From Branchiostoma floridae (taxonomy: Eukaryota > Chordata > Leptocardii > Amphioxiformes > Branchiostomatidae), in NCBI RefSeq assembly GCF_000003815.2, contig NC_049989.1, forward strand, positions 15,968,522 to 16,032,521: a stretch of 64,000 nucleotides of DNA, in the 5' to 3' direction. Below are positions 27,901 through 56,410 of the stretch, one piece after another; position 1 is the first letter of the stretch; each line of letters begins with the position of its first letter. Under the pieces are notes generated by a model, which made no database searches, was not told the origin of the DNA, and worked only from the letters and a program-made list of their open reading frames with translations. The translations under genes were made by a program, and so were the position numbers.

Positions 27901-30900
27901 GGCAGGCTGGGAGACTGCTGGTTCCTGTGTGCCTGCGCTGCCATTGCACCACATAGACAACTCATACAGAAGGTAGCACCAAGTTTCAACTCTAACATAC
28001 GATGTACATCCAGCAAATGTTCTTTGTGTTGTTGCCTTTTTATTTTAACTAAACATAATTATGCACGGTATGATCATCAAACTCTGTGCAAGAAATGGTC
28101 TAATCAATGCATATGGTTTGATTCAGTTTGGGAGAAAAGCTTTTCAAGACTTTGTATGTCAGCAGTTGGCCTAAACTATATTCTATGGGGTACAGGGTTT
28201 GCAAGGCATTTGGAAAGTTGGGAGTTGAAACTACTGTGTTACAGTATACCAAAAATTGTGTACATACTGCTTTCCCTACATTATTAACAATCTGCACTTT
28301 CAGGAAAGAGTCTGGGAATTGAATACTCAGCACTACTACTACCAGTAGTAGCCCCCTGCCTTGCTGAAGTGGCCTGTGTGTCCCAAGGGCTTTAGAGCCA
28401 GAGATTTGCACTGCTCCATATGCACTGAAAGTTGTCGGAAGAAAAGCATCTTTTGATTACTATGGATTCCTACCAGTTAATCTATGTGAGGCAGTTTGGA
28501 GTAAATTCTTGTGTCATTATTATAGTCTGCTGATAGAATTAATCATATCTGAAAAGGCATTCAATTCAAATCTTTATTTTGACAACTTCTGGGCAAAACA
28601 ACCTCTACAACAAACAAGCCCTCGCACACTGTATGGGCTATATACATGTACATGTACGTGCAGAGGAGCATCTGCAATATGTATAATCTGTATGAATACA
28701 GGTCAGGTATTCTGATCCCTATTTGGAGAATTGTGAAGGTTGTGAATGGTTTAGTCAGCCTTAAACTATGTGTTATGCATAATGGTGCATATTTGAGCTG
28801 TTCTATCACATTTGTTCATCATGAGTATCCAGACACATACATGCATAATATGTACTTTTTACTACAAGACTAAGTATATAAGTCAATACACCTTAACTTG
28901 ATACATGTATCATTACATTATGATCCATTTTGCTTATTTTTATATATGACTACAAAGTGCTAAACATATCAAGATCTGCAAACAGCTTGAGGCTTGATGA
29001 TTAAAAGCAATGAATAATTGTGAATTACACAATAGTCAAATGTAAAAAGCCTTTGATAAATATGATCTTACTACAGTAACTAAATTCTACCTACCGACTT
29101 CACCTGTAAGCATTTAAATATAGAATACAACACGGCAGCTGCAACACGGTGTATTCCGTATCACCCGAATACAACACGGTGTATTCCATGTCACCTTCAC
29201 AGGGATACTTATTTATGTCATACCCACCTGAAATAAACCTTGTTTTGATGCGAAATGCGCCAGAAGTTGAACAAATTTGGTGCCCTCGAACAAAAAGTGT
29301 TACAATAGCAATGTTCCAACGTCTGAATCAGGTATTCGAATTGCCAACCATGCCGCACTCGGCCCGCTCGAAATGGTTTGATTTACTTGAAGGAAGTCTG
29401 TGTGATACGGAAAGTTATCACACGGTCCGGAACACCCGTATCGAACGTTTTCGTGTCACCGGTATGACATGATAATAGTATTTACAATGTTGGTGCCAAA
29501 AGGTGCAAACAGGGAGACATGTTTTTCTTCATTTCACAACAAAGCAGCAAATGCATTCAATTTGATAGCCAAAAATTGTATGATTAATACAAAATTATCA
29601 TCTGAAGTCTGGAAGACAACAAATGTGATTTTGATTGCCAGATGTCATTATACTATAGCATGACCTTTACCCCCTATAGTGCCACACTAACCCTGTGTCC
29701 AGACTGATACAGTTTTCATGTTGATATCAGTCACCACCACATCTCCACCTGGTGACACAGCAACACCACAGGGATACTCCATACTTGCCATACCACTTCC
29801 AATGTGAGACAGAAATCTGCCCTGACTGTCAAACATTTTCACACAACCATTTTTAGTCTCAGCCACAATGATGTTTCCCATCCCATCAACACAAATGCCC
29901 TGAGGTGCTTTCAACTGGCTTTCACCAGATCCCTCACTCCCAAACTTAAACTTGAAGTTCCCCTCTCTGTCCAAGACATGGACACAGTGATTGTTGTGAT
30001 CAGCGACCAGAATGTTCCCCTCCCCATCCACAGTGACATCTATTGGCCACCAAGGCTTTGGGGACCTATGGCTTGAACCATATGTACTCATGGCTCTACC
30101 CATGTCAGAGCCATCTTGCTTAAATACTCGAAGTCGTCCGTTCTTCCCATCATACTCTGTGACAATCACCTGGTTTGTTGCCATAGCTACAGTTATGCCA
30201 TGGCTGTATTCAACATATGGAAGATCTATTTTGGCCAAACTTGTGCCTTCCCTCGAATACTGCACTACATGAGAATTACTCACCACCCACAGGTTGCCAT
30301 TTCTATCTACAGCAACTTCCTCAGGTTTTAGCTTTTTATCAGTTTCCCCAGGCAGAGATGTTGTGAACTGTCTGATATAAACACCATCCATTGTGAACAC
30401 CTGGATTCTTTTGTTACCGTATATTCTCGAATAAAGTACGCACTTTTTTAACTTTTCAAAATTGAAAAGGTGCTACAAGTTGTTGTCAAAGTTGGGGTCA
30501 ACAATGTAAAGCTCATTGTCCTGTGATACAGCTACTCCATAAGGCCATTGAAATTTCCCCCTACCTGATCCCCTTCCCCCAAATCTGACTTTACTCACCC
30601 ATGGTCGTTCCACCATGGTTGACCTGACATTCGTACCTACATCTTTCTTTTGGGGCTGAACCACAGACCGTTTGACTTGTCGTGTCTTTGTTGCCTTTGA
30701 CTTATCCATGTAAATGTCTGGCATGATTTGTAACAGATGTTTCCGCTGATTCAAACTCCCCACCGGTTGCTTGGCTGTCATCAGCTCCTCTATTCTAGCC
30801 TCCATGTTCTTGTCGGTCTCCTGAAGTTGATGGATTTTCTTGTTCTGTTCTTGGATGATTTTCTCCAATTTCTCATTTTTTTCTTTCAGCTTCTTTACCT

Positions 30901-33900
30901 CTTCCCTTATGGCATCAGTGTTCCCAGCCTGTTCCCTCGCTGTTGGTTGCAGGAGAACTGGAAGTAAAAATGCAGCCAGGGTTAAATAATAATATAATAT
31001 CTGGTGTAAAAGAGATATTTTATCTGTCAGCTTTGACTTTGATGAGTAAAAATCCAGTGCAGGAAAAAATCGGTATTTGCTAGCAAATGTGTTTTTTTTT
31101 TCAACTGAATCATTTCATGTAAGACTGATACAGATGTACCTTGAAATAATTCACCCCCTGCAAAAATGGACTGTTCCAAAGTCACACCTGAGCAAAATTG
31201 AAATATTCAATATCGGCTTCTGCCCAAAAGTAGTCTATTGCAAAGTCATGCCAGTCCAAAAGGAAATTTTCCAACACAATATATATTATGGTCACATAAG
31301 ATAGATAAATAGCAACATGTCACCAAAAAAATCCCCAATAAGTCGTTTTTAAGTGTATTTCAATATGAATGGAGTCCTTGGAAAATTTGTTCAATTCATC
31401 CCTACACCAAATTTCAGGTCATTTGGCTGCAATACCAGGTCAGAGGAGGCCCAAATATACTGTTTTGGTCTAAAAATGGCCCCCAAACGTCAGTTAATCA
31501 TTTTAAAGGCATACATTGAAAAAATTTCAGGTCATTTGGCCCCCCAAAAATAAAGATGAATCAATTTGACAGGAGATGAAGAAGAAAGAAGAGACATCAC
31601 GAACAATATATTTCAACTGATTTTTTTTTATATTGGTGAAATATAATGATTATGGTTTAAACCAGCTGATAAAGAAGGCAGTTTTTCCTTATTTCTGACT
31701 TACCTGGGTTGGTCTGGAAGCGTTTTCTTGGACTGTCAGCTGCATCATCTTGGAGAGCTTTCCTTTTGTTCTCTTGGAGGAGCAATTGATGTTCTGTGAG
31801 TTGGACAAAGTCAAATTCATCTGTACATTGATAAGAAACAAAAAAACAACAACAACTTTGTATCAAGCATCTCTCCAATCAAAGGAATCTCTAAATTTCC
31901 TCAACCATTCGAGCTATTTCCAGAGACCATGGATTGTTGAATTCGGTGTAATTCATCACTATACTGATGAAATCTATGTCGCTTCTGTCACTAATACTAA
32001 GCACTTGGACGCAGATTTCATCACTATACAGATTTCATCACTACATCGCTTCGGATGCTAATACTAGCATTTGGACTTGCATCTTACATCTTCTCCAGGT
32101 AGGCCAAAGGCCTGTCAGCTGAGAGTCTCTTTCACTCTTCCTGATCATGGAAGATCCCCTCCTCTTCAAGTCTAACTAGTCTGCCCAGTCTGTACTAGAT
32201 GTCAGTATCTCCTGTATGTTGTCCCTCCATCTCTTTCTGGGTCTGCCTAAGGGGCGCTTGCCCTTTGGTTTGTACTGGAGAGCTATCTTTGGAATTCTTC
32301 CCTCATCCATTCTTTCTAGTTGAATGGCCAATGCTCTAGAACACGCTTATTTTCTAAAACAGTGAAAACGACGCAGCGCGCCTCTCCCGTGAAACTACCC
32401 TCTACTTTAATGCTCATAACAGAAAATTGGTTGACTGTAGGTCCATGAAATTTGGCATGCTTAAAGATTAAGCTTTGATGCGTCCGACAATTGTCGAATT
32501 ATTGGTGTTGGTTGAATAATATTGGACGAAGTTACCCACTGAACATTGCGTATTTTACGCAATGTTCATTGGCTTATAGCAAACATGTAGCTTTCATGAA
32601 TATCATCAAAATCTCTGTGCTAATTTCCAGAAACCTTTCATTTGATATATAGTTTATTGTCAGTGGAGCGCAGTACCCGAATAGAGAATGTTTATTCTGT
32701 TGAAGACAAGGCGCGGCGCCTCGCACGTTCCGAACACAATTGGAACGCGTCGGCGGGACAGAAACCATGGGACTTGCTGTCCATCTTTGTCACGTCGACG
32801 TAAGCACGTAAAGTTCACTAACCCTCTTAAAATTTATATGCTAATCCCCCCAAACCTTACCTTTCAATTGATACGTAGTTTAATGGCGATTCGAATGGTT
32901 GATTACACAACAACAGAATGCTGAAAATGTTCACTCCGATATGAAGACGTGGCACGTCGCTCTCCGGGCAACCATGGAATTTCGAGATGAAATTTGTAAC
33001 GGCGTTGTAAGCACGTAGAGTTAATGAAAAATCATGAAAATTTGTGAGCTGATTTTTAGAAACCATGCATGGTTTTCATTTCAAATATAGCTTGTGTACA
33101 GGGGAACGCAGTACCCGAATAGAGATTATTAACGTCCTTTACAGAGACAAGGCTCCTCCCGCGTTCTACTTGGTGAAACGGTCTCCAGGCAAGTAACCAT
33201 GGGACTTTACCATCATCTTTGAAACGGCGTTGCATTCATGAAGAATGTTCTATCTCTCTTGAAATCTATGTGTTGGTTCCCAGAAACCTTAGCTTTACTT
33301 TGATATATAGCTTATTGTCGACTTTGGTTACAAGCATAACACTGGCATAGAAAATGTTCACTCTGTGCCAACCCTTCGCCCCGTATGTTCTACCGTGGAA
33401 CGAGGTCGCTCCATGTGCTGTCATAGATTTGTCAGTGCGGTTGTAAATTAAACTCCTTGCTCCTCAAATCAACCGGGCAACTTTGGTATCATTGCAAAGG
33501 CGATTAAATAGACTATCGCATTGTGGAATTAGATAATTAAATCTAGGTGAACTGTAAAACAGACAAGCACAAAGAAACTGGACAAAAAATGCTAATGTTT
33601 CAAAAGCCATAGTGCCAGATGTAATTTTGCAACACACAAAATGTGTACATGGTTGTGCTGGAAAAATCCTGTAGATATGAAAAAGTATAAACATTATGCA
33701 AGTCTAAGGTCTTTTTGTTGCACCACAGGCAATTGTTTACACCCATGCAAGGGGTTCAAGCCGACTGACCCGGCGTGCGCCTCGTCTAAGAGAATAACGC
33801 GTTCTATATGATCTGTGCCGTTTTAGAAAACCCCGGAAGTAGAACCGAATATTTGATGCTTGGCCATTCGACTATTCCACATGTCCTATCCATCTGAGGG

Positions 33901-36900
33901 CTGCTCTTTCTATGTCTAATGTTCTATAGAACATATGTTATGCCTAAAGTTTCTCTGAGGTACGTGTTTCTCAGTCTGTCAGCCCTCGTTTTGCCTAGCA
34001 TGATACGGACGACTTTCATTTCTGCAGCTTGTAGTCTGTTAATGTCTTAGTTTTGTTTGTTTTATCTGTTTAGAGTAATTTAAAACTAAATTAAACTTTA
34101 TTCAGTGATGAACATGTACAAGTACCATCCTGATGAAACTATTCACGGATGTTTCAAAACTAAGTAGCATGCAACTTAGAATATTGAAAGCACTGCAATC
34201 TGGGAGATTGTTCCTGGATCAACCAATCAATAAACTATTAATCCTAAATTTTCAAAGTCAAGTTTATCATTTGTTGTAAAAGGTTCGTACCAGGATGTTT
34301 GTCCTTCAGACTGTCCACCACATGTTGTAGCTCTGCATCTTGTAGGGCCTCCATCAGCACATGTATGGTGGCAGCGTTTCCCTCCCGCTTGTACCATTGC
34401 TGTAACAGGTCCATACAGCGAGACTTGTCATCCCGGTGTTTGGTGTCAATGTTGTCTATGTCTGGTGTCTCAAACCCAAGACACCAAGCCAGGTCCTTCC
34501 AGTCTGAGCTCACCTTGTTCTTTATGAAGCAAAAATACCTCCCGACACCTGCAAAAAAACATTGAGTATCATCATGGTGAAACATTAACAGAGTGTCCCT
34601 TATATACTATTATCATGATAATATCTATGCACATACAATATAAGACAATTTTGTCAGAAAAGATGTGAGCCAATATCCATTATGAAGCATTCCAAGAACA
34701 TTATTTATAGAAACAACACGCTAAATGTTGCATCATGTTTTTCAAATAGTATGATTGATTGTGCAAGGCGAGTGGCAAGTTTCTGATCTGCTAAAATCTT
34801 GTTTTTATATTTCAGCCATACATAGTATGGTGAAATATATTGTATTCGTAATGTTTCTTTCTTTCTTTCTTTCTTTCTTTCTCCTGTCAAATCTTCAAAG
34901 TGATTCATCTCCGCCGTTCCTGGACCGAATGATCTGAAATTTGGCACAGGGGTAGAATGGGCCAATACCTTGATGCTTTTTTCTCAGTTTTTTCATATCT
35001 GCCTCTAAAATGATTTTATTGAGATTTTTTGGTCAATTTTAGACCAAAACTGCATATTTTGGCCCCTGTACCCTGGTATTACAACCAAATGAGCTGAAAT
35101 TTGACAGAGATGTGCCTTAATAATGCCCCCATATAAATTCGATAACACTTTTGGTGTACAGTACAACAAAATGCTTATTTTTGCGATTTTTTGACCAATT
35201 TTCTACCAAAAAAGGACACTTTTGGTCCCTGTACCCTGGTATTACAACCAAATGAGCTGAAATTTGACAGAGATGTGCCTTGATAATTCCTTCATATAAA
35301 GTCAATAACACTTTTGGTGTACAGTACAACAAAATGCTTATTTTTGCGATTTTTTGACCAATTTTTGACCAAAAAAGGACACTTTTGGCTCCTGTACCTT
35401 GGTATTGCAACCGAATGAGCTGAAATTTGACACAGATGTGCCTTGATAATCCCTTCATATAAATTCAATAACACTTTTGGTGTACAGTGCAACAAAATGC
35501 TTATTTTTGCGATTTTTGGCCAATTTTTGACCAAAAAAGGACACTTTTGGCTCCTGTACCCTGGTATTAGAATTAAATGACCTGAAATTTGGTATAGATA
35601 GGCATTAGATACTTGGTAACAAGATTCAAGTAAAATGTTTGACATAAACAACTTTAAAATGATTAATTTTGGCACTTTTCTGAGGGGAAATTTGTTTTCT
35701 TTGGGCCTCCTGACGCGACCTTCCGTGACCCCGCACAGAGCCACACCTGTGCGCGTCAGCCGGAGAGTTAATTGAATCAAAGACCTAGCCAATCAGCGAA
35801 GAGGAGGCCAAAGGCTAATTAATATTCATAAGCTGGGCCTCATGATCCCGTATATAGCAGTGTTCCCGCCAGGGGGAGCGAAGCCCGCCTAAGGCTCTCG
35901 CATTTTAGACTATTCAGAAGGCTTTACATTGTATCAGTTCTTAGGGGCATATCTATGATAATCGCAGCAGTCACTTAACTTCTCTTCAGGAGTTTAGCGT
36001 AACACTATTTCAGGTCAAACCGTCAAAGGCAACTAAAAACAAACTTTAACGTTACTGAGCTCAACAGTACTTATAACTTGTTATCCGAAGTTGAAACGCT
36101 AGCGATGGTATTTTCGGGTCAAAGCTTCAAAGACAACTAAAACCTCATAAACAACAAACTTAACTTAGCTCAGCAGATACAAAAATATTGTACGGGTTGC
36201 CATCCTTAGTTGAAGCGCTTATTTATAGCGCTAGTATCTTCGCTGCGCCGTTAGCCGCCGTGCGACTTTTGTTGACGGTCTGATATCCCTACGTCGCCGC
36301 CTCGCTGATATTCCCACGGACATGTTTCAAGAAAAATACCCAGCAAAAACACTGTTCTGCGTCAAATTCTATTCTATAAAACATGTGGGACTCAGTGTTA
36401 CAGTCTAAATATTTTGTAGAAGCACCGCTGTAGGAAAGAAGGTCCAAGCAATGTAAAACATCACGTAGCATGAAGTTTGCTGTCAACTGGCACACAGCAC
36501 ATGACTGTTTGAAACTCTAAGTCTAATCAACAGCCGTGTTTGATTGGTAGCCGGCGGTCCTTTGATGAAGTCGGCGAAAGATGCGTTAGTTAGAAAATCT
36601 GCGTTTAGTTTTGATACGTAATTATAAGTTAGACAGTGGCGAGAATGATTATTTTCTCATCAATATTTCTCTTCAGAATTATTTGAACTTAATTGTACAT
36701 CTAAACAATTGGCTTACCTGTGCAATGTTTATATGATTAATGATCAGTGTACTGAAATCATGTGTAACGTATGGCTCCTAGTCAATAGATCAGCATTTTC
36801 TCTATAGTGACCACCTGTCTATAGTGGCCCCATTTCCTAGTGCTGTTGTTGTTTGACATAAACTTTGAACATTTAAATTGTAAGTAACTTTAAACTGCCA

Positions 36901-38569: not shown

Positions 38570-38615
<46 letters not shown>

Positions 38616-40980
38616 AGATATATTCTTTAGTCCAATCAGCTTAAGGCTAGTGTGTTTTGCTTTTGTCCATGTAATTCCTGTTCTATCAGAAAGGTGGCAC
38701 TTAATAGCTCAATCCTCAAAGTCATGGGAATGACAGTGTAATACAAATCTTAGGGTAGCCTATACTAGGCAAGACTAGCTATGAGCTGTTAAACATACGT
38801 ATACATATTGTTACAGAATGGCAGAAGGTTATGTTTTGAGCGTGTTTGTCTGTGTGTGTGTCTGATATCAGCATAACTCAAGAAGCCTTGGATGGATACT
38901 GATGATATTTGGTAGGTGGGTAGGGGTCAAGAAAACGAAGGTCAAGTTAGATAATGGGCCCCCTAGCGGCTTGCTAAAGTACTGCAGCGGAACTTCCATT
39001 TTTGATATCTCATGTTCTGGACGTGCTGTGGTCGTGATTTTTAAGTGGTAGATAGCCCTTGGGGCAGAGAGTAAGTGCTGGGAGTTTGGACCCCCTAGCA
39101 GCTTTTTTGGAACTGCAGGCGCCAATTTCCTTTCAAACTTAAGACGAAAATAACTTGAGAACGTGTTGACGGATCCTCATAATTTTTGGTATGTAGATGG
39201 CCTAAGTGATAACTTACATTATGGAATACTAATTATGTAAATCAACAGCTAATTTACATAATTAATGAGGAAAGTAAATGAATCCACTGCATTCCATGAT
39301 AGGACTTTCAAACTTGTCCTGGTGTGCTTCTATCCAAACCTATCTTGCTATTTCAGGTTATACCAGTCCAGCAGAAAACCTGGGGTGACCAGGAGTACAA
39401 CGGGAGGTTCCGCTTTGCGTTCTGGAAGTTTGGGAAGTGGACAGAAGTGACCGTTGATGATAGACTTCCCTGTAGAGACGGCAGGCTGGTCTACTCCAGA
39501 TGTGCCAACAGATGTCACTTCTGGCTCCCCCTGCTGGAGAAAGCCTATGCCAAGTAACAGTCACATATTTGTTTGAATGAATTAATGGTTTTATTCGATC
39601 AACATGATCAGGCAAAAAGTATATAGCAGCCCAGGGTTGTAGCCAGCCTGAAATCATTTTCCGTCCCCTCGATTTTGCGCAAAGGCGCAACATTCCTTGG
39701 GGGATCCTAAAGCATACTCCCCCGCAAATTTTAAAATCTAGACCCTCTGAAATGCTTTTTCCTGCATTTTCAGGTGTAAACTTTGCTGGTAGACTAAGCT
39801 GTTCAATGGAATCTGTTTTGGTAAAATATTATAGTATGAAATTATACAAGGAAGGCCGTTTTTTGATATTGTTACATATTGATTATTTAGTCCGTCACAG
39901 AGGACAAAATGGGCAAATTTTTTTCCGTCCCCAGCTGCAAAATTCCGTCAAAGGACGGAAGGACGGGTGCTGGCTACAACCCTGTAGCAGCCACAGGCTG
40001 AATTGCATACTTTTACACTTAAAACTTTGGCTTAGGCACATTACAGCTAAACACACTGATGACGAGATTTGTATTCTTAAAATCAACAATAAATGCTATC
40101 TTAAAACAGATAGGTTTAAATCGATAAGTTAGTTTCCACAATGCGTGGTCTCTCACAAGTAGCTTACAACAGCTTTGAATGAATTCATTCCGGAGGTGTG
40201 CACCTAATTTTTGTCAGGGTGCACCGGTTTTCAAATTCAAAAACGATGTGCTTAACTTAAAAAATAGAAAGAAAACAAAGCCAGAGGAACAGATTTATAC
40301 CTCGGTGTACTCAGTTTTATAGAGTGAATACGGTCATATTCAAGTTTTCCTCCCTGCCCCATACTTTTATGATTTCTGCAAATGCTATATTTTTATGCAA
40401 AGAATATGAGAACTAGAACCAAGATTGTAAATCAATTGGTGTGGTCTAAGTAAAGGAGCTATTGTGCAGTTACGTACAGCATATTCTTGATATTCAAGTG
40501 TCAGAAAAAAAAGCCTTTTTTTGCTTGTTGGCTCAACCCTTAGCTCACTCCATGGTTAGCAAGCTAAAGGATTGAGCCAGCGGTCACTACGGAGGATTGT
40601 ACTTAGGCTAGAATTTCAGATTCAAGTTTTGAAGAGAGCAAGGTGGAGATTCAGTAAACTTTGTCATTAGGTTTTACTGACATTCTACTTTAAATTATAT
40701 TTTGAAGTCAAAATGTTTGCTGTGCACATAATTGTCTAGGTTAGATGCACCAGTGCAGCTACGTTCTTATGAATGAATTTTGGGCCTTGATGTTGAACTT
40801 TCCTCCCCCAGATTGCACGGATGTTATGAGGCTATAGTTGCAGGACAGGTGTGCGATGCACTAGTGGATCTGACAGGGGGCGTTGCTGTGAAGATCCCCC
40901 TGAAAATCCCACCATCACAGTTGGCCGATCGACTTCTCAGGGTCCATAGAAAAGGGATGTTGCTGACATGTTCAACAAAC
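24932..40980 (+). CDS. Calpain-10-like cysteine protease, first five coding exons only
   Basis: Exons 24932-24948, 26090-26231, 27835-27972, 39357-39553 and 40812-40980 join in phase to 221 codons. Calpains are Ca-linked intracellular cysteine proteases. [16 protein letters not shown] and [11 protein letters not shown] form the N-terminal part; [14 protein letters not shown] holds the catalytic cysteine; [37 protein letters not shown] and [12 protein letters not shown] follow; then [14 protein letters not shown]. The spacing and wording match human calpain-10 best, notably FLCACAA and [14 protein letters not shown]. The last exon ends at TCSTN with a good donor (GTGAGT). The exons with the catalytic His and Asn and the C-terminal domains were not found up to 64000. 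Either the gene continues beyond the window through a very long intron or it is 3'-truncated. The first exon (17 coding bases) is the weakest call. Confidence 0.8.
26303..26532. repeat. Dispersed repeat, copy 2
   Basis: Direct-orientation copy of 23303-23530, in the calpain intron after exon 2. Confidence 0.8.
26724..26968. repeat. Foldback MITE in calpain intron 2
   Basis: GTTAATACAATATTCTTCAA...CAGTGACGTTTTTTTAAAGGC on the left pairs with GCCTTTAAAAAAAGTCACTG...GAAGAATATTGTATTAAC on the right. The interior also folds (CCTAGTCTCATGC / CTCTCGCAAGACTAGG). A partial relative may lie at 25500-25700. Confidence 0.8.
26985..27786. mobile_element. GTTGGACAAG MITE split by a pogo-like insertion
   Basis: Outer ends GGGTTGGACAA and TTGTCCAACCC. 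The left 100 and right 170 bases match the uninterrupted element at 62199-62550; between them lies a foreign insert starting at 27087. Confidence 0.85.
27087..27610 (-). pseudogene. Truncated pogo/Tigger-type transposon, transposase C-terminus
   Basis: The left end CAGTCAAATTTGTCTAAGAA follows a TA dinucleotide, the usual Tc1/mariner-pogo target. On the minus strand an open frame ends with [16 protein letters not shown] at 27385, the C-terminal signature of Tigger/CENP-B-type transposases; [17 protein letters not shown] before it also fits. The DDE core and the other terminus are missing. The right boundary near 27600 is approximate. Confidence 0.65.
27973..29214. other. Calpain intron 3, 5' part
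   Basis: No exon seen on either strand. At 29117-29195 a block with AATACAACACGG and CGGTGTATTCCGTATCACCC repeats related to the hairpin at 54938. Confidence 0.6.
29215..29472 (+). mobile_element. Mini-element with ATGTCATACC termini and an 85-codon open frame
   Basis: Ends ATGTCATACC and GGTATGACAT. The frame opens at the ATG inside the left terminus and closes with a TGA overlapping the right terminus. It reads MSYPPE..., then [24 protein letters not shown] and [11 protein letters not shown]. An inverted relative is at 54661-54929 with the same central peptide. No family recognised. Confidence 0.6.
29687..34548 (-). CDS. Death domain / coiled coil / NHL-repeat protein, nested in calpain intron 3
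   Basis: Exons in transcript order: 34548-34291, 31820-31704, then 30957 to about 30486 and about 30424 to 29687. The first three join in phase. Exon 1 is a Death domain (86 residues: [35 protein letters not shown]). Exon 2 is a linker; exon 3 starts a coiled coil ([19 protein letters not shown]) and then the first NHL blade ([20 protein letters not shown]). The 29687-30424 part holds five more blades ([55 protein letters not shown]) and a TAG stop. About 60 bases with a stop interrupt blade 1 (see 30425). An upstream 42-base exon at 38387-38346 (phase-compatible, QQFFIVRKG) is possible; no start codon was identified. A scaffold or recognition role is inferred from NHL and Death families. It may be a pseudogene if the interruption is not spliced out. 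Confidence 0.7.
30425..30480 (-). repeat. Insertion interrupting the NHL coding region
   Basis: Between YIVDPN and NKRIQVF, where one blade should continue, lie about 60 extra bases with a TAG. The sequence includes GTACTTTATTCGAGAATATA, which looks like a MITE terminus, and a small inverted repeat. A 51-base GT-AG segment (GTAGCACC...ATTCGAG) would restore the frame but is very short for an intron. Confidence 0.5.
32105..32345 (-). pseudogene. LINE reverse-transcriptase C-terminal fragment (RTE-like)
   Basis: Minus-strand frame reads [19 protein letters not shown] and then [19 protein letters not shown], the usual C-terminal tail of RTE/CR1-type LINE proteins, with a stop soon after. It continues the fragment at 33830-34035. 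Confidence 0.75.
32480..33480. repeat. Degenerate tandem repeat, period about 220 bp
   Basis: Four or more diverged units share ATATAGTTTATTGT-like, GAACGCAGTACCCGAATAGAG, AAACCATGGGACTT and GGCGTTGTAAGCACGTA-like blocks (for example near 32646, 32870, 33088 and 33307). The block separates the two LINE fragments. Confidence 0.75.
33830..34035 (-). pseudogene. LINE fragment, part just upstream of the 32105 tail
   Basis: Minus-strand reading gives [31 protein letters not shown] and, after a frame change, [13 protein letters not shown], which normally directly precede the GRIPK tail. Frame breaks show it is dead. Confidence 0.7.
34851..34883. repeat. (CTTT)n microsatellite
   Basis: About eight CTTT units in a row within non-coding sequence of the large calpain intron. 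Confidence 0.95.
34900..35640. repeat. Tandem repeat, period 162-163 bp
   Basis: CCTGTACCCTGGTATTA-type blocks begin at 35065, 35228, 35391 and 35553. Each unit also has GAGCTGAAATTTGACA, ATAACACTTTTGGTGTACAG and CAAAAAAGGACACTTTTGG. A diverged unit precedes them, and a related sequence is at 31350-31560. Confidence 0.9.
35641..38571. other. Calpain intron 3, central part
   Basis: No supported gene apart from the possible 42-base exon at 38387-38346 (-). A GC-richer patch lies at 35690-36300. A SINE-like B box (GGGTTTAAATTCTGGG) is at about 37670. Confidence 0.5.
38572..38622. repeat. (TA)n(TG)n microsatellite
   Basis: About 14 TA units followed by about seven TG units. Confidence 0.95.
39632..39984. 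mobile_element. Complete hAT-type MITE with 8-bp target duplication
   Basis: Terminal repeats CAGGGTTGTAGCCAGC and GCTGGCTACAACCCTG, flanked on both sides by TAGCAGCC (39624-39631 and 39985-39992). The CAG start and the 8-bp duplication are hAT hallmarks. No coding capacity. It lies in the calpain intron between exons 4 and 5; a truncated relative is at 9218. Confidence 0.92.
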
Positions 40981-42430
40981 GTGAGTAGAGTTACATGTTT
41001 TCAGAACAAAGCTGTATTTCATGGATTGTCTATATCATATAGTATTTTCTGTATGTTATGCTTTAACTTTTTACATCTAAATTTTGCTGGGGGGAGAGTT
41101 GCTCAGAGATGCCAATAAGTTGAAATGCTGCCCTAGCAGCACTCTTGCAATATCTGTATCTGTATATAGCCGGTATAACCGTCTTTCAGTGTAGCTTTTG
41201 GGCAGGCTTGGGTCATAGCAGTAGCATCTGGTTATATTACACTGAACGACATGTCACACCTAACTGTTACACATATCAAACTGTAAGTGTTGTTGTTGAA
41301 GAGGTTCATCAGTCACGTATGTTTACAGTTACTATCAATTTTTCCTCTAACAGTGATTGTTTATTTAAAAGGTATATACAGAACGTACCTGCAAATATTC
41401 CATGTCTACCAGTACATCTTGGACGTGGAGAATGGTCTAGTCTCGATCTGGCGAGAGAATATGAGACTAGACCAGGCTTCTAAGTGTTGTTGAATTTAGA
41501 TGAGGATGCCTCTTCTGTACTTGGTGGCCATGAGTTTTATGATCTATGATACTTCTGGAGAATAATGAATTTTGTAATAACTCAATCCTGGTTGATAACT
41601 CTGGCACTTGAATGCTGACTAAAGGTAATGCACTAAATGCCAAAGAAACAAGGGGTTACAAGGGGTTATCTCTGCCACAGTATTAGAACTTACATATAAG
41701 TTAAGCGCAATGAATAAAATATCTTGAGTATAGAGGTACAACATAGTTTTAATCTTTGATAGATATATAAACATAATGCAGCAGATACATTTTTTATCTT
41801 TGTCATATTACACATACATGTATGTACAGTAACAGTGTTCTCCACAGATCACTTGTTTCTTAGATTTATTATCTCTGTACATTTTACCATTATCGTTGAA
41901 ATAAGTTGTCTTCATATAGTATAAATACACAAACATGCTACATTGTATGTTTGCCAGACATATGTAATACATTGTGTGATCATCTGCTTTTTCTCGGAAA
42001 TAGTATTGATATTCTCTGTACACCAGATTTCAAAACTTTTCTCATTACATAGAATACAGCATAATTTCTCAGTGGATAAAAGGTAGTACTACTTACATCA
42101 GGAACAAAAAATCAACAACCAAAACATCTTTGTACATTTAGGCAATAATGTCGCATGATTTGCATGGGACAAATGGAGTCATGATAATTCAAACTTTGTG
42201 ATTAGAGTCAAGATAATAAATAGGAGTGTCTCTATGCAGGGAATGAAAATGTACTCGTGTTGGACAAAAATTGTATGATCCCATACATCCCCTAAAATTT
42301 GTTAACAACATGGACTTCCAAGCTGTGAGTTGGACGGAAGAAAAATTAAAGCTGGACACAGCCCTATATCCAAACCTGACTTAAGATGCAGCATACTATT
42401 TACAATAAAATAAAGGAAAGGAATCTGTTA
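40981..42430. other. Non-coding stretch after the last calpain exon seen
   Basis: Searched for the next calpain exon (His/Asn part of the protease core) on the plus strand and found none. A minus-strand AATAAA at 41880-41875 may serve the CARD gene that ends at 42431. Confidence 0.5.
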
Positions 42431-43999: not shown

Positions 44000-46287
44000 A
44001 CTTCTTAAGAGCTGTTTATGTTGTCAAGGCGATGAATGTTGTTCCTGTTAGATCCAAATGAGAAGGTTGCTATTTCAAATTGTGTCATATAGTTAAAGAG
44101 AAAGATCTGTAATGGTGATATGTAGATTCGATCAAATTTCATGTTCCGACACGAAAGCATGCATGTCAAATCATCGAAGTTTGTTTGAATTGTAGATGCC
44201 ACAAGGTCAAAGAATCAAGAGTAATTTCTTAACGTTTACTGAGTCTGATATGTAAAGTCACTTAAAGACTCAGAGATTGTACAAACATTAGACTAAGTAC
44301 AACGTAGTTAAGCTACGTCAGGCTCTGCCCTGCTCTAACTTGTACTATAAAGCCGATACACGAGACAAAGTTGTTGACTCACCGCAGTGTATATCCCACC
44401 AACTGTAAGGTCCTGTTTTCAGGTGACATGTCCAAACTCACTGTAATGCTCCATGTTTCTTCTAGCAACAGCTCACTGCTATACCCAACAAGCAAGTTTA
44501 CACTAAAAACCAAACTTTTCAGGTACCGTGCACCACAAAAGGTAACCACGGTTTTCCCCTGGCTAGCTATTCTTCGTTGCAGTGACCAGATGACCACATA
44601 GCCTATTTTCGGTCTTCAGGTCTTAAACCTAACACGGTAGTAGTGAAATCTAGTCTGGTGGCATTGTCTATAAAGTTGTATGCTGTCTGTTTAGAGCTGT
44701 TCTTTGAGCATAATGTAGAGCGGTAACTTTATCAGCTGATGGTAAAGGATACTGAAGAGAACAATGTGTATGTGAAACTGTAGCAGGGGAGGTATAAGGT
44801 ACAGATGCAAGTCATTCTTCTTGGTTCAAACTCATCAAGAAATGCTGTGCTTGGTCAATGTGTAGTTAATGCTATTACAATTGTGAATGCAGGTGGGCAA
44901 GTTAGTGTAATTATGCAGTGGAGGATAACAAGCATATTGCAATCACAGCGGTGAAGTTTTGACCTGTCTTTGCTGTCGAAAATTAGTCCAAGCTGGGTGC
45001 AGGCCATTTTATAGCTGTGTGAAGACATATCTTTGAACTGTATACGTAGGTCCCTCTGCAATGCTTGCAGAATGTGTGTACAGTGTATGATCTAAGAAGA
45101 TAATTTTTTCTTTCTATCTACATGTACATGTAACTTAAATCTCATCCAAGAGAGACAATGATAGTTTGATTACTGTTATGCTGTCAAGTTTCTATTCGGT
45201 AGAAAATTAAAAAGAATGTACTTGATCTTTGTACCTTTACAAAGCAGTAATTCTTTTGGCTTTCTGTTACAATTTTAAGACCAATTTTATTTTTAAGACC
45301 ATAATTTTAAGACCAAAAGTTTGTTTGTGATGTCTGCAGTTTGAAAGTAAAATAGTAGATGTCCTTCCTGCACAAGACAAGACCTAGTGCTGATACAACG
45401 TACTATATGTTTGGTGACCGTCATGCAATGCGCCTATTGTAAACTGCTGCTATCTTGATACCATGGGTACGGGGATTCCCCTTTGCACTAATTGCTATTG
45501 GCTCTCTTTCTGCACACCTCTTTCAACCAGACCATTCCGTTCTGCTCTATTCATGGCCATTTATTGACACATCGGCATGCCTGAACATGCCACAATGGAG
45601 TATACATGTGCTATTTGTGTAACAGGTGCCATTTAAACAGGTGTCAAAAGTGCGGGTCCTAGTTGTTTGTTAACACAGCCATTGGCTTTACAGCATGTAC
45701 CTGCAATTTCTTACCTGACTGTTTCCTGCTAAATGCATTTTTTTCTGGTCATATTGCATACCCAGTAAACCACATCATGGATAACACACCAGGTTTGTAC
45801 TGAAGAGTACAAGCTACATGTCCAGACAGATTTATTTTATCCATACACACCAGGAAGGACCCCTACTCTTTTTGATAAGTGTGATGAGATCTTTTAGGAC
45901 GTGTTCATATTGTGTCTCTCCTCGAACTTGGGATCTCCATTTTGTAATACCCTATCCATGTGCATTATATCAAGTTGAGTCAAAACACGCTATAAATTAC
46001 TGCATGGTAGGATTTATTGAAATAAGTGTTATCTTATATAATTTATTTATAACAATGTACACAAGATAATTTTCATACTTGAAAGGTAATTGAAGGTTAC
46101 ATGTCTGACTCAATAATTATTCTTAAAGTAATCTCTGTCAGCTTTCAGTACAATAGATAAAATTATGTTGATACACATACATACAAAAGTTGTCAATATC
46201 AAAAATAGACATCAAAATGTAAAACAATGCTCTTGTTGAAAATAAAACTTTTTAGGAACTTGAACTAGTGTGCCTTGCAAAATCAAA
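44000..46287. other. Intergenic, between CARD genes A and B
   Basis: No exon supported on either strand. A minus-strand AATAAA at 46047-46042 may end gene B. Confidence 0.55.
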
Positions 46288-48168
46288 TCATTGACTACCT
46301 GTTGCACTTCCACTGTCTGTATCATCATTGTCTTCCCTTATGTCTACTCTGGACAGGCGACCCTCCTCAAATCTTATCTTTATAACACTCCCCCTTCTCT
46401 TGGAAGACTGTTGTGTGGTCTGCGACTGTTTCTCAGTGGCCTTCTGCATTTCTGTCACATTTCTCAGTGTAGGGGGTGCCTGTTTTGGTCTTGCGTTGAG
46501 AAGTTTTGTAACAGGTTTGTCCTCACATGCATTTCTAATGGCGTTTCTCTCTCCTACCGTATTTGTTTGAGTTCTTGGCAGTGCAGAATTCGAAGGAGTG
46601 TTTTGTCTTTTTGTTGCATCTGGAGTTTTTGTAGAACTACCAGAGCTTCCGCTCACAGTGACTTTGCTTGGACTGTATGTAGTCTTGACTATAGCCTGAT
46701 TTCTGTTACCCTGTGCTGTACTAGTAGCTGTCACAAGCTGTTGATTGGTAGATTGTCTATTAACTCCTGCTGTTCCCGATACTCTCACGCCTCCAGTAAT
46801 TGTTGGACTGTCATGTTTACTACTGTTATTATGGGTAGGTACTGTTTTAGTCCCTTGCGTATTAGTGGACGATTTCTGAGTAGAACACTGGTCTTCTTGA
46901 TGCATGACTGTCATGCCATGCCTTGCCTTTTGTAGCAAATCTTCTTCAAAAGTTCCTGCCACATTTTTAGATTTCTTACAAGGAGTCTTTTGTGCTGATT
47001 TCTGTAGAACACCTTCTTCTGTTCTAGGTGGCTCAGTTTTTACCACACTTCCTCCTCTTGAAGCAGATTGTAAGGGCATTGTGCGGTCTTTTTGCGGCCT
47101 AGTTTCTTTCAGTGCTGTCTCACTTTTTGACATTCCATTATCTGCATCCTCTGTGTCGACTAGATGTTGATCAATGCTGTGAGTTCTGGTATACCCTGGA
47201 CTCTCACTGTTTTCATCAACATCAATTTGTTTAGGCGTTGTTGCCTCAGACAGTAGAGAGTATGATAACGTAACTGTAGGAGCTTCTTGTTCCTCTTCTA
47301 TTGGACATTTTGTAGGATTTGTATTCAATTTTGCCTTTGTTGTATTTACACATGATTTGGTTGTTGTTGATTTTGTTCTTTCTGTAGCAGACGTACCACT
47401 TGTAGATTTGTGACTCTCTTTGACTACAGGTTTGGCTGTGGCGACCTTGGTTGTTGAGGTTTTTGAAAGCGGTGCTGACTTACTTCCACTTGAGCTTTCA
47501 CCGCTGTTGTCTTGCTGAACTTGCAGAGCTCCTTCTGATTTTGGTCTTACCATTTCTTCTCCTGTCGACTGTATTGTCCTAGCCTTTGCAGTCTCTACTC
47601 TTGGAGCTGGTCCTTCTTTTGACTTTTTTATTACTGTCTGTTGTTTCTGTGTGCTGACAACTTTACTACTGATGGTCTTCTGCCCTTTTGTTTGATTCTT
47701 GGGAGCCTTTGCTGGATAAAGCAGTTTCTTCAGGTTTTCTTTTTCCCTGTGTATGGCAGACATGAGTGAAGCCGTTGTGCAGGGTCTTGACAGCAAGCCT
47801 TCAAAGACACGATACATCTTGTGCAGATACTGCCTCAGGGTTTTATTCTCGTCCTTAAGAACTTTGTTTTCGTCGACAAGATCCAGCTCTCTCTCTGTCC
47901 CCTTTCCCATCAACGTGTCGTACAAGAAGGAATAGTCGCATCTTAGAGCTCGGGTAAAAGCCTTGAAGGCGTTCGGTCCTCGAGTGACGAGGATGTCAAG
48001 AAACTCCTCTGCTCGCTCCTTCCTTGTGGGTTTTGCAGTGATGGACTGGAAGTGAGAGATGGTGAGAATGTTGTCTTGTATCATGTGTGAACGGATGTCC
48101 TCCACCCTTAAGGACTCCACGATAGCCACACGGTTCTTCCGAAGGACTTCTCTGTGTTTGGCATTCAT
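46288..48168 (-). CDS. CARD / coiled-coil protein B, intronless
   Basis: 626 residues from the ATG at 48168. The frame extends 36 codons further up, but those residues are unlike the paralogues and are read as 5' UTR. CARD at about 5-92: VLRKNRVAIVESLRVEDIRS, RAEEFLDILVTRGPNAFKA. A shorter coiled coil (LVDENKVLKDENKTLRQYL) follows, then about 450 residues rich in Ser, Thr, Lys and Gln with no recognised domain. The C-terminus RGSVIKIRFEEGRLSRVDIR with a following acidic stretch resembles the end of protein A. Role inferred as for A: a death-fold adaptor. Confidence 0.85.
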   Translation of the reverse strand: MNAKHREVLRKNRVAIVESLRVEDIRSHMIQDNILTISHFQSITAKPTRKERAEEFLDILVTRGPNAFKAFTRALRCDYSFLYDTLMGKGTERELDLVDENKVLKDENKTLRQYLHKMYRVFEGLLSRPCTTASLMSAIHREKENLKKLLYPAKAPKNQTKGQKTISSKVVSTQKQQTVIKKSKEGPAPRVETAKARTIQSTGEEMVRPKSEGALQVQQDNSGESSSGSKSAPLSKTSTTKVATAKPVVKESHKSTSGTSATERTKSTTTKSCVNTTKAKLNTNPTKCPIEEEQEAPTVTLSYSLLSEATTPKQIDVDENSESPGYTRTHSIDQHLVDTEDADNGMSKSETALKETRPQKDRTMPLQSASRGGSVVKTEPPRTEEGVLQKSAQKTPCKKSKNVAGTFEEDLLQKARHGMTVMHQEDQCSTQKSSTNTQGTKTVPTHNNSSKHDSPTITGGVRVSGTAGVNRQSTNQQLVTATSTAQGNRNQAIVKTTYSPSKVTVSGSSGSSTKTPDATKRQNTPSNSALPRTQTNTVGERNAIRNACEDKPVTKLLNARPKQAPPTLRNVTEMQKATEKQSQTTQQSSKRRGSVIKIRFEEGRLSRVDIREDNDDTDSGSATGSQ

Positions 48169-50468
48169 CTTGGTTTGTTTATGCTTAAAGAAGTATGAAC
48201 ATTTGACAAAAAAGGCTTTAGAAAACTGTTCTGAGTGATATAGATTTAAGTATAAACTTTCACATTTTATGAACATGCAAATGTTTCACACTTTGATTTT
48301 GCAGAAAAGTTTTTTCCTCCATATGCCTACAACCCATAAAAGCAATACCAGGTAGTTGTTTAGACTCATGATCATTTGTACTACTGTAACAGATATTTTT
48401 TTACAATTACATGTCATCTTTAAATTTATACAAATTTCATTGCAATAGGAAGGCAGTCTTTGAAGGAAATATACTGTGTGAAAGAAAGAAGTCAGAAAGA
48501 AAACTATGGGAGCTAGGAAAGCTAGCGATAAACAGGACTAATAAGTGGAAGAGTTGAAGAAAGACTGACTGCACGCTGCTGCAAGATATTCAGAATACAG
48601 CAGGAGCAGAACACAGTAAACTACTACTGTGACAGTTGGCTGTTTCTGACAGCTTGCAAAGGATGTAAAAATGCTGGAAAGGGAAATATATAGCTGGAGC
48701 CAAACAAATAGCAAGACTTAGTGTTCTAGAGAGACCATCCTTTTTATACCACATCCAGAGATGTACATGTATGATTTACAAGCACATGATCAATCAGTTA
48801 ATCATCCAGGGATAAATCTTACCTTAAAGTTTCCTGTGAACTGGAGATCAAACTTTGTGCAATCCGGCAGCAAACATCGTACTTATCTGTACTTCTGCGT
48901 TGCCAGAAACAAATGCGAGTTTGTGGGACACAAACGCTACAGTCCTGTACAAACACGCACAATGCATTCCTACACCTGTCCGTAGGTACCGCTGGCAATG
49001 CTAACACAACCATTATAACCTGTGCGGCAGTTTCTATGCCTTACCCACCACTTTGTACAGGAGCTATTAATCGTGTGGTTGGCAAATAACAGCAAACTGT
49101 TCCTTTGGAAATGTTTGATAGCTTCAATGTCCACTCTTGTTACCAAGGTAAATAGTATGTCTTTTCAGTACAGTCTGTATTATGCTATTTTTAATTAGGA
49201 AGAAAAAAAGGTGTCAAGACCCTGACTTTTTTAATACGTCAAAATTGGTATACTCAGCCACGAGTTTTTGTTCACTTAGTTTGCGAGTTTGTCAGCATGT
49301 TGACATGTTGTGTTTTTTTAAGAATCTGGATTTGACCGTTGTTTATGTTGCTTAATCGTGAACAAATATTTGTCAATGGTCAGAGCTACCACCACCATAT
49401 GGTTACTCAATCACCAGAATCACAATTGTACTTATTTATAGAGTCTGACTTCATCGAAGGGGAATAACATGGATTAGTTGTTGTGTAGAGTGCTTGGATG
49501 TGTTAAGGATGCTGTTATACAATAAAAAATAACTTACAGCGATTTCTATAATACGTTTGTTGTGACTTGAGGCTTTTTATCTATGTAACTTTGTTTTTTT
49601 CAAATACAAATACTAGTATGCTTGAACTAATGTAAAAGGCTATGTACATGTACATGTATGTCCTTGAAAAAGTTTGTACGTAGTTGGTGGGGCAAGAAGC
49701 TTTTGGCCCAGGTTGCACACTGTGCAAACTTGTTCAGAAAATTATTTTGCTGACTGAATACTAATAGTCCCTTGAAAGTATTCCAGACCTCCAAATTATT
49801 TCCAAGGCCTACTCACCCAAACATGATTCAAATCCATTCATTTATAAGATTTTGTTAATTATAAAACCATAAAACAATCAACCAACAACAAAAACATGAT
49901 GAAAGAAAATACAATGAACTTTAATTAATAAGATTCAAGAATGCTGTCTTGGAGTCAATCGTGAGAAATGAATCATACCTGCTGACTATAGGATTTGTAT
50001 GTTACACTTATTGACTGTTGAATGTTGATTGGTAATGTGTGTATTTACTCAAGTTAAAGCTGAAGTTCATTCTGCTCACAATTCAGGAAGACAAAAAATG
50101 TATACAACTGTACATTCGAATGTTACAGTTAGTACATTTTCTGACGAGTCTTTTCAAATGGATCTGAAGTGTTCACTTGAATATTTTCCTTTGGTGAAAC
50201 TGAAAGAGAAAGCCTTATTGATCTCGGTAAAGTTTAGCTTGTGAAGAGCCATTCTTCCACTGGTCGTGACACAAAAGACAGAGTCTGACATGTATGCTAT
50301 TTACAGGTTCATTGTGCCAGGGAAATTCCTCTAGCTCTTTTCAACAAGTAGTGTACAATGAACAGTGGGCTGCAAGCCTTTGGTTCGGGTGAACGACACA
50401 GCCGGAACAAAACTCATGGCCTCTAGTTCCTTCGGCAGGGCTGCTAACCACTGTACTACATACACATG
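48169..50468. other. Intergenic, between CARD genes B and C
   Basis: No gene seen. A SINE-like block on the minus strand occurs at about 50370-50465 (AGTACAGTGGTTAGCAG). ACATGTA words cluster near 49640-49660. Confidence 0.55.
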
Positions 50469-51638
50469 CTACCTATCTGGTGTTCTCCAACCACTCTTTG
50501 GTTGCCTTGTTGTACTTGGCTGCTGTACCTGTACCCGTGCTGCATATTTTGGTCCAGATGGATATACCCCAGGAGCTGTTGCCGGTCTCTTATGAAACCA
50601 TTCAGTATCTTTTGAGGTTTTTCTAGGTGGTTCTTTTTTGTTGTCTGTTTGTACAGTACTGCCTTCCATTGACTGCTTTGGAGAGCATTGACCTTTCAAG
50701 GGAAAAGTGCCTGTAACTTCTGATGTTTGCATGTTAGACTGTAACTTTGGTTTCTGGAGTTGCTCCCTTAGAGGTAGATGGTTGGCAGGATGGTCAATAT
50801 GTTTTTCAGGTTGTGTTGTAGGTCTCGTTTGCTCTTTTTGTACCCCTAGGCTCTTCTCAGCAGCCTTCTTAATTGGACAGGAGTCTTTCTTATCAGCTTT
50901 GACAGCCTTCCTCCCACCCTTACATTGTCCCATGTTTGTCTTGGCTTTGGTGCTTTCTTTGTCAAGTTTCTTGTTGGCCATCTTGATGTACAAATCTTTT
51001 TGTTGGATATTCAAGTCTTTTTGTTGGTCCAATTTTTCTTTTAACCTTTTTTCATTAGCTATTAAGCGATCTACTTCTTTGTTTCTTTTCTTTAAGAGAG
51101 CTTCTAGAGACTTGATTTTCCCTTTCAATTTATCTATCTGAGCACGGGTATTCTCATGCTGAAGATCTTTTTTCTCCATTTGGCCTTTCAATCTTTTGAT
51201 TTCTTCATGAGCATTCACTATCTGTGCATCCTTTTCTTGCATTTGCCCTTTCAGCCTATTGATCTCAACATTGGCATTATCTAGCTTTACGTCTAAGGAC
51301 AACTTCTTGATGAGATCAGCACACGATGTACATGTACATACATGTATGTATGAGGGAGAGGGAGTTTGATCATGATCTGAAAAAAGATCAGCTAAGTGAG
51401 AGTCAATCCCTTTTAGTGCTGTCTTGAACACTTGAAATGCTCTTGGTCCTGCAGTCTCAAGAATTTTCAGAAATCTTCTTGCTTTCTTTTCTGTCGTCTT
51501 CTCAGAGTTTATCATTTCCCAATTATCTTTGCTTAAGATGCCCTCTTGCCACAGGTGGTCCTCAATGTCACCAACCGACAAGTCTCGTACAAGAGCCACA
51601 TGGTTCCTCCTAAGTTTTGCTATGTCTGCTGGGTCCAT
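50469..51638 (-). CDS. CARD / coiled-coil protein C
   Basis: 389 residues from the ATG at 51638 (A at -3, G at +4; an in-frame ATG four codons upstream has a poorer context). CARD at about 1-85: IAKLRRNHVALVRDLSVGDI, FLKILETAGPRAFQVFKTAL. The link to the coiled coil contains SYIHVCTCTSC, encoded by an ACATGTA-type repeat. The coiled coil (about 115-230) has an internal repeat (INRLKGQMQEKDAQI, IKRLKGQMEKKDLQ, IDKLKGKIKSLE). The tail is basic and Ser/Thr/Pro-rich. A splice acceptor (CATGCAG) lies just before the start, so an upstream exon may add residues (see 52263). The most diverged of the three paralogues. Confidence 0.82.
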   Translation of the reverse strand: MDPADIAKLRRNHVALVRDLSVGDIEDHLWQEGILSKDNWEMINSEKTTEKKARRFLKILETAGPRAFQVFKTALKGIDSHLADLFSDHDQTPSPSYIHVCTCTSCADLIKKLSLDVKLDNANVEINRLKGQMQEKDAQIVNAHEEIKRLKGQMEKKDLQHENTRAQIDKLKGKIKSLEALLKKRNKEVDRLIANEKRLKEKLDQQKDLNIQQKDLYIKMANKKLDKESTKAKTNMGQCKGGRKAVKADKKDSCPIKKAAEKSLGVQKEQTRPTTQPEKHIDHPANHLPLREQLQKPKLQSNMQTSEVTGTFPLKGQCSPKQSMEGSTVQTDNKKEPPRKTSKDTEWFHKRPATAPGVYPSGPKYAARVQVQQPSTTRQPKSGWRTPDR

Positions 51639-51939
51639 CTTTAGCTGCATGCATGGAAAAGGTCGTCACAAAAATATAATGAAGAAAGGAAAAGATTATT
51701 GACTCTACATGTAACAACAAAACAACATTACCTGAAACAAGCAGAGGAATATTCAACTTCTATCTTGTCCTGACTCCATATCTGTATACATTAAAAAAAA
51801 ATCTGTTTTCTAATGAATTTTTGCATGCTAACAGGAATGAAAGGAACAACTGAGGATTCATAATTTTGAAAGGTAACAATGGCAGTTAATTGTGCCATGT
51901 TTCTTCCTGGTGGTATTGTGAAACCTCCTCCCAACCTAG

Positions 51940-52610
51940 CCTCTATAGCAGGCTCTCTATGGACTTTTTTGGCACTTTTGCTGGCCATTTCTTTTTGTAC
52001 TGGGTCGCTGATTGCTGGCCTCTCTCATAGCCGTCCATTTTAGAGCCTGCATTTTTTCGGCGGTACAAAGTCATATTATAGAACGATTAGGGCGATTATC
52101 AAGGAGGTGCGAATTCCCTGCCTGCCGTGGACGGCTAATAAACTGCACGTATCTCCGCCGGACGCGGACAGTGCGCTGTCACGCCCCGTGTGCACTGACC
52201 CGACAATTCTCTAACGGTTTCGGGGTCAAACTGCTTTTTAAAAACACAGAAGTGAAACTTACCAGTTCGACGTTCTTTCGGTATGTCCGACGCCTTTGCT
52301 CGGGCGGAGCGCGTTTCGCGTGACATATGGGGGTTTCCCCATCTGAAGGATGGCCAAGCTCGGGCCCGAGTTGTAAAATGCTTGCAGCCGACATGCGAAT
52401 TGCCTCTCACGGAGTTGTGAATTATTCCTAACGTATGTGTTAATAGGGCAGATGAATGGCTAATCGTTTTATAATATGACTTTGTACCGCCGAAAAAATG
52501 CAGGCTCTAAAATGGACGGCTATGAGAGAGGCCAGCAATCAGCGACCCAGTACAAAAAGAAATGGCCAGCAAAAGTGCCAAAAAAGTCCATAGAGAGCCT
52601 GCTATGGAGG
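51940..52610. repeat. Large foldback: 150-bp arms around a 370-bp CpG-rich loop
   Basis: Left arm 51940-52089 and right arm 52461-52610 are almost perfect reverse complements (GCAGGCTCTCTATGGACTTT against AAAGTCCATAGAGAGCCTGC; TTTTTTCGGCGGTACAAAG against CTTTGTACCGCCGAAAAAA). The loop is GC- and CpG-rich, unlike the A/T-rich surroundings. Confidence 0.93.
52263..52394 (-). CDS. Possible 5' coding exon of CARD gene C, inside the foldback loop
   Basis: On the minus strand an ATG at 52394 opens 44 codons (MSAASILQLGPELGHPS at the start, RTYRKNVEL at the end) followed by a strong donor GTAAGT at 52262. It ends in phase 0, and the acceptor before CARD gene C (exon from 51644) is also phase 0, so the two would join in frame. 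The sequence is not recognised. Inference from splice signals only. Confidence 0.3.
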
Positions 52611-56221: not shown

Positions 56222-56410
56222 CTGAGAGAAGAGAGAAGAGCAGAGAAGTTGGTGGGGATCTAGTGTTTTGAAGTATAGGATATGGAACATAGTGCTGCAA
56301 GGATTGCTGAAGAAGAGATTGAGACAATATAAGAGATTAGCTTTGGATTAGTACAGGGCTGAGTGTAGAAAAGGTTTATGGACATGAGAGGATTAAAGCA
56401 ATATCAGCTT

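Follow-up and report, generated by a model that had tools for sequence, protein, structure and literature searches.

Three CARD genes adjoin an interrupted copy of a Death-NHL family, a candidate recognition repertoire of lancelets

Introduction

The lancelet genes described here resemble the shuffled death-fold genes of the reported lancelet expansions (PMC2575513). Death is also reported to be the most over-represented domain in the dispensable genes of two lancelets, as would be expected of a birth-and-death repertoire (PMC12373286), and the term NHL does not occur in the main text of either paper. A TRIM survey reports, in its account of lancelets, odd TRIMs with MATH domains and not Death-NHL proteins (PMC3503706). 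NHL proteins are reported to bind RNA by their top surface (PMC9070667, PMC5908797). In the Podospora protein HET-E, pairs of codons under selection are reported on either side of a constrained residue, both in the d-a loop and in the b-c turn, at the top of the propeller (PMC1805685). For CARD proteins, invertebrates with BCL10 are reported to have CARD-CC homologs as well (PMC5978004). In the open-licence literature (PubMed Central), amphioxus, NHL and death domain were not found together and no lancelet Death-NHL repertoire was found among the papers listed; papers on amphioxus TRIM/NHL expansion were unrelated, as judged by their titles.

Here we analysed a window of 64,000 nucleotides of the Branchiostoma floridae genome (contig C11 of assembly G000, positions 15968522-16032521; the assembly has 513 Mb in 431 contigs). 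An initial annotation had described a cluster of four death-fold genes on one strand, one Death-NHL gene and three CARD/coiled-coil genes, which might form a local signalling module. Our analysis favours a different explanation, in which the CARD genes and the Death-NHL gene are probably unrelated neighbours: intact genes for probable CARD adaptors and a broken Death-CC-NHL copy that belongs to a putative recognition-repertoire family.

Results

Three CARD reading frames, a Death exon and an NHL region were found on the minus strand of the window, all within 23 kb. The Pfam cut-offs were 23.9 bits for CARD, 22.6 bits for Death and 20 bits for NHL. Rfam and tRNA scans of the window gave no matches, and NCBIfam gave coil and propeller matches only, all far under their cut-offs. 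Elsewhere in the window there is a tandem array at 113-1910 (366-bp unit, 4.9 copies, 99% alike). A plus-strand open reading frame at 3584-4585 resembles a rhodopsin-type receptor and two minus-strand frames at 55562-58391 resemble two-pore potassium channel genes, both by eye.

CARD genes C1 (42431-43999), C2 (46288-48168) and C3 (50469-51638) each consist of a single coding exon of 522, 626 and 389 codons, respectively, counted from the ATG. Their CARD domains, at about 43981-43733, 48153-47905 and 51617-51378, scored 59.8, 62.2 and 65.5 bits with the Pfam CARD profile, all above the cut-off, and the domains thus lie where the initial annotation had placed them. The ATG of C1 is closely preceded by an in-frame stop, and a plausible 3' splice site was seen by eye a little 5' of the ATG in each gene. 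In C1 the CARD is followed by a coiled-coil-like segment and a basic Ser/Thr-rich tail, in C2 by a weak coiled-coil signal and a long Ser/Thr-rich tail, and in C3 by a strong coiled-coil-like segment and a short tail. The tails are probably disordered, judging by their composition only. The heptad score exceeded the 95% shuffle value in C1 (windows at aa 107-150 and 181-246), in C3 (aa 109-209) and in a related locus, L036, but not in C2; of the three genes for which a coiled coil was proposed earlier, C1 and C3 thus have a heptad signal. A model of the C1 CARD, with C2 and C3 as the alignment, predicts a CARD fold with a split first helix. In codon comparisons of the CARDs, pS was 0.66-0.93, near saturation, and pN was lower (0.28-0.50); because the synonymous sites are near saturation, it is the long open frames and the lower pN that speak for coding constraint. 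No TRAF6-type motif was found beyond aa 90 in the four proteins scanned. A caspase-like cleavage pattern, DTEDA, occurs in the tails of both C1 (aa 442, at about 42676 of the window) and C2 (aa 338, at about 47157). Such patterns would be expected at a rate of 0.09-0.14 in each tail, and the two tails are otherwise hardly alignable; we take the shared pattern as a lead. Taken together, C1-C3 are intact, real genes of an ordinary kind.

C1 and C2 share 45.8% identity over 131 columns and are each other's best match. The next best match is L036, a fourth member 4.5 Mb away with a CARD, a heptad stretch and a similar tail, and no Death exon was found near it among the Death matches listed. The CARD tree has good support for one of its 23 inner branches. 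In it the shortest path from C1 leads to C2, yet the two do not form a supported pair, and C3 is unplaced. Compared with solved structures, the C1-C3 profile matched RAIDD with 54.8 bits, BCL10 with 27.9 bits and CARD11 with 21.5 bits. By this sequence comparison the profile is closer to RAIDD, caspase-9 and APAF1 than to CARD11, and it did not identify the CARDs of C1-C3 as the CARD9/11 type.

The Death exon (34291-34548, minus strand) is open, has phase 1-1 and is close to the corresponding exons of five relatives. It lies within a Pfam Death match of 61.4 bits (34244-34606), and by eye it is preceded by AG and followed by GT, in agreement with the initial annotation. A probable small linker exon of 117 nt follows at 31704-31820 (phase 1-1, with splice sites and frame assigned by eye), and it has a DNA match to a related copy on contig C2. 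The third exon starts, by eye, at 30957. Its first part (30473-30957) encodes a coiled-coil-like region and the first half-blade of the NHL propeller and ends at an in-frame TAG (30475-30473). The TAG falls in the first blade and is carried by a 75-nt insertion (30422-30496, edges accurate to a few bases) that is missing from all five aligned paralogs. The rest of the propeller (29687-30472) has a Pfam NHL score of 85.1 bits and lies in a 261-aa open frame behind the TAG. In a model of this NHL region, of low confidence (mean pLDDT 62.7), the predicted strands repeat as a-b-c-d. The Death-NHL gene described initially is therefore real in its domains but probably not intact, since the in-frame TAG interrupts the propeller. 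The copy still belongs to the Death-CC-NHL family, having a Death exon upstream of a matching NHL exon on the same strand.

The closest NHL relatives of the window copy are the copy on contig C2 (82%) and the members of an array on contig C16. In the contig C2 copy a TAA interrupts the same blade, without the insertion, and the open frame has 249 codons, compared with 261 in the window copy. DNA similarity between the two loci extends over introns, which argues against retrocopying of the window copy. The copy sits antisense in the 11.3-kb gap between two plus-strand calpain exons identified with Pfam, at 27835-27990 (profile positions 33-82) and 39324-39560 (66-142); a third calpain exon lies at 40804-41007 (138-206). 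The interval from the Death exon to the calpain exon includes a repeat with a 163-bp unit (3.6 copies, 35007-35591). Neither Pfam nor a motif scan showed a later calpain catalytic exon in the window. A fuller, inverted calpain paralog lies on contig C11 at 16115050-16118508, about 83 kb past the end of the window; its corresponding intron is about 0.7 kb long, and no counterpart of its exon with profile positions 226-254 was found in the window. Most likely, the Death-NHL copy arrived as a duplicated segment in the calpain intron and is dead or dying.

The genomic setting of the CARD genes was compared with that of other loci in the assembly, using 149 CARD matches (150 candidates scored) and the 150 Death matches listed of 588 candidates. 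Grouping at 10 kb gave 113 CARD loci and, among the Death matches listed, 129 Death loci. Four of the 113 CARD loci, including that of the window, hold three or more CARDs. Eight of the 129 Death loci (among the matches listed) have a CARD no more than 10 kb away, where about 0.6 would be expected under uniform placement, which is a weak null since Death and CARD genes cluster. Three of these eight pairs are only 0.3-1.5 kb apart and may each be one gene with both domains. The CARD tandem is thus real, but the assembly has others like it, and a module cannot be proved from a single case of Death and CARD genes as neighbours.

Among the matches listed, Death-NHL genes are found mainly in two arrays. 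Of the 150 Death exons listed, 20 have a same-strand NHL exon within 6 kb downstream; nine of these pairs are on contig C16, nine on contig C17, one on contig C2 and one in the window. Among NHL matches, for which 146 of 148 rows were used and two second pieces left out, 84 rows fall in contig C17 (16.8-19.0 Mb) and 16 in the contig C16 array (16.18-16.6 Mb). In the latter, 12 of the 16 NHL places are open over at least 369 codons with no stop in the match, and these therefore read through the first blade; in three others the match includes a stop, and one is a fragment. A further dispersed NHL match on contig C5 (61%) has an open frame of 634, and no Death exon was found near it among the Death matches listed. 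At L071 on contig C17, a Death frame, a further frame (592-1155 of L071) and a coil-NHL frame follow each other in this order. In another copy, L047 on contig C16, a RING and a B-box precede the same type of NHL, so this propeller type carries different heads. The best match of the NHL repeats among solved structures is TRIM3.

We aligned 11 NHL exons: the window copy, the contig C2 copy and nine contig C16 copies, i.e., the ten best NHL places and one more in L056, with one duplicate row dropped. Variable columns lay next to the proline that precedes strand a and past the acidic end of strand b. Loop classes were drawn after viewing the contig C16 alignment, with the d-a and b-c loops forming the top class; the predicted strands of the window NHL put the top columns in the d-a and b-c connections with modest confidence. 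The mean amino-acid difference was 0.523 at the 39 top columns, 0.154 at 49 other-loop columns and 0.173 at all 200 non-top columns, and the pN difference was reached by none of 5000 column permutations and none of 238 shifts. Because the classes had been made after looking, they were fixed and carried by alignment to 12 exons picked from the 84 on contig C17. There the amino-acid difference was 0.499 at top columns, 0.075 in the other two loops and 0.155 at all others, and again none of 5000 permutations and none of 238 shifts reached it. Columns with five or more residues lay in the top loops in 14 of 21 cases among the 11 copies and in 11 of 16 cases on contig C17; the remaining hypervariable columns (7 of 21 and 5 of 16) lay outside the top classes.

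In codon comparisons of the 11 copies, top-loop dN/dS was 0.93 (0.60-1.43), not clearly above 1, and 0.53 in the rest; on contig C17 the values were 1.11 and 0.62. The a-b loop, classed as conserved, had a dN/dS of 1.46 in the 11 copies on very few changes. In these copies pS was raised at the top loops (0.323 versus 0.155), which points to multiple hits, gene conversion or misalignment. We also chose columns in one array and evaluated them in the other. The 19 columns with at least five residues in the nine contig C16 copies (12 of them top columns) had a dN/dS of 2.57 (1.46-5.32) on contig C17, and the 33 columns with at least four residues 1.63 (0.93-3.05). The reverse choice, contig C17 columns on contig C16, gave 0.89 (0.46-1.53) and 0.93 (0.56-1.42). 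All of these intervals are too narrow, given the dependence among columns and the likelihood of gene conversion. Columns with at least four residues in both arrays numbered 16, compared with 3.7 expected. In nine contig C17 genes with both parts, five of which belong to the 12-exon sample, dN/dS was 0.30 in the Death exon, 1.08 in the top loops and 0.34 in the other loops, and the amino-acid difference was 0.159 in Death, 0.152 at non-top NHL columns and 0.503 in the top loops; by the latter measure Death resembles the non-top columns and differs from the top loops. The Death exons on contig C16 gave a dN/dS of 0.83 (four copies, few changes) and 0.55 (six copies), and they are too alike to judge. 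These sequence comparisons point to selection on contig C17 and not on contig C16.

Discussion

Most of the cluster in the window is ordinary, with three further lancelet CARD genes beside a dead or dying duplicate, which they probably adjoin by chance. C1-C3 most likely encode oligomerising adaptors, as suggested by their CARD domain and predicted fold. Their clustered CARDs would nucleate a CARD helix and could recruit apoptosome-type CARD partners. The adaptor role proposed earlier is consistent with the CARD profile and the fold; membership of a four-gene module is not supported. The broken, dispersed Death-CC-NHL copy would have no role in a CARD module. The part worth following is the family behind it. 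Its members look like recognition molecules, as had been suggested for the Death-NHL gene itself, although the window copy is broken and is unlikely to be part of a module. The arrays on contigs C16 and C17 most likely form a recognition repertoire, with d-a and b-c NHL loops that would have diversified to bind varying ligands, presumably in immunity, and with a Death domain under constraint, or a RING/B-box head in one sister gene, that would relay the signal.

A true local signalling module, with the Death-NHL protein as sensor and the CARD proteins as adaptors, is what the arrangement of the genes on one strand within 23 kb would suggest, and Death and CARD loci do adjoin beyond the uniform expectation (8 of 129 versus about 0.6, among the matches listed). 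We nevertheless reject this idea because of the breakage and the kinship of the Death-NHL copy, and regard it as very improbable. A TAG interrupts the propeller, in an insertion that five paralogs lack, the best NHL relatives are on contigs C2 and C16, and the copy sits in the intron of an opposite-strand calpain gene. The only other dispersed Death-NHL pair among the matches listed, on contig C2, is interrupted too, and L036, the relative of C1 and C2, has no Death exon nearby among the Death matches listed. The gene would be intact if a short new intron (about 30476-30408) removed the TAG. By eye this stretch of 69 nt is AT-rich with GT and AG at its ends, and the frame stays open for 261 codons after the TAG, but the donor context (TT-GTAGCA) is poor and the contig C2 copy stops in the same blade without any insertion; such an intron seems unlikely. 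It is slightly less probable still that C1-C3 are the lancelet members of the CARD9/10/11/14 (CARD-CC) group, feeding BCL10 and MALT1. They have the same order of CARD, coiled-coil-like stretch and tail, and CARD-CC homologs are reported in invertebrates having BCL10 (PMC5978004); a CARD11 match of only 21.5 bits against 54.8 bits for RAIDD, a single coding exon and a short coil speak against this assignment.

A more serious doubt concerns the family rather than the window, namely whether the NHL variation reflects relaxation of unneeded genes, as birth-and-death debris, instead of selection for recognition. At three of the 16 contig C16 NHL places the match is broken by a stop, pooled top-loop dN/dS is about 1, columns chosen on contig C17 give 0.89 on contig C16, and lancelet Death-domain genes are reported to be often dispensable (PMC12373286). 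Because the reverse choice and the four-residue columns gave the weaker figures, relaxation has to be kept in mind, on contig C16 most of all. Yet the other columns of the contig C17 exons are constrained (0.34-0.62), as is the Death exon (0.30), variation falls on the same columns in two diverged arrays (16 in common versus 3.7 expected at four or more residues), and dN/dS reaches 2.57 on contig C17 at columns chosen on contig C16. We consider relaxation possible but doubtful. A fuller reading is about as likely as not: a chordate germline repertoire of many NHL-propeller proteins in which the ligand face is diversified at repeat-equivalent positions, like that of fungal HET-E, with a Death or RING/B-box head and a death-fold or ubiquitin output for the one variable sensor, and of which the window copy is a broken outlier. 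Should the NHL face prove to be a diversified surface for recognition, lancelets would have a repertoire of receptors based on a six-bladed propeller and not on LRR, Ig or lectin domains. The loop analysis names the residues to test. Since the NHL top surface is reported to bind RNA in other proteins, a ligand face is plausible by analogy, and the ligand of the Death-NHL proteins could be RNA.

Among known CARD proteins, RAIDD (CRADD), caspase-9 and APAF1 are closest by profile, but the C1-C3 reading frames are without NB-ARC, caspase or Death domain and instead have a coiled-coil-like stretch and a tail. In this they are like CARD9/10/11/14, with a CARD followed by a coiled-coil-like stretch (weak in C2), and might likewise nucleate CARD filaments. 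They differ from these CARD-CC proteins in that their CARD profile is far from CARD11, they have a single coding exon and a shorter coil, and no MAGUK domain was found with them in the Pfam scan. The propellers recall TRIM-NHL proteins of the TRIM2/TRIM3/TRIM71 type, given the TRIM3 match of the repeats and the RING and B-box at L047. The head of the window copy, by contrast, is a Death domain, and the family occurs as arrays in which many close copies have hypervariable loops. The closest parallel in the pattern of variation is with the Podospora HET-D/HET-E (NWD) proteins, as far as they are described in the cited work: the same loops, d-a and b-c, vary in the NHL propellers. A NACHT-WD40 architecture was not found, the repeats being NHL and not WD40 and the head Death or RING/B-box and not NACHT. 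The likeness would be one of convergence and not of kinship, and by analogy the Death-NHL proteins may work like HET-E in putative recognition. If so, lancelets would possess a repertoire convergent with fungal incompatibility receptors, with exchangeable signalling heads.
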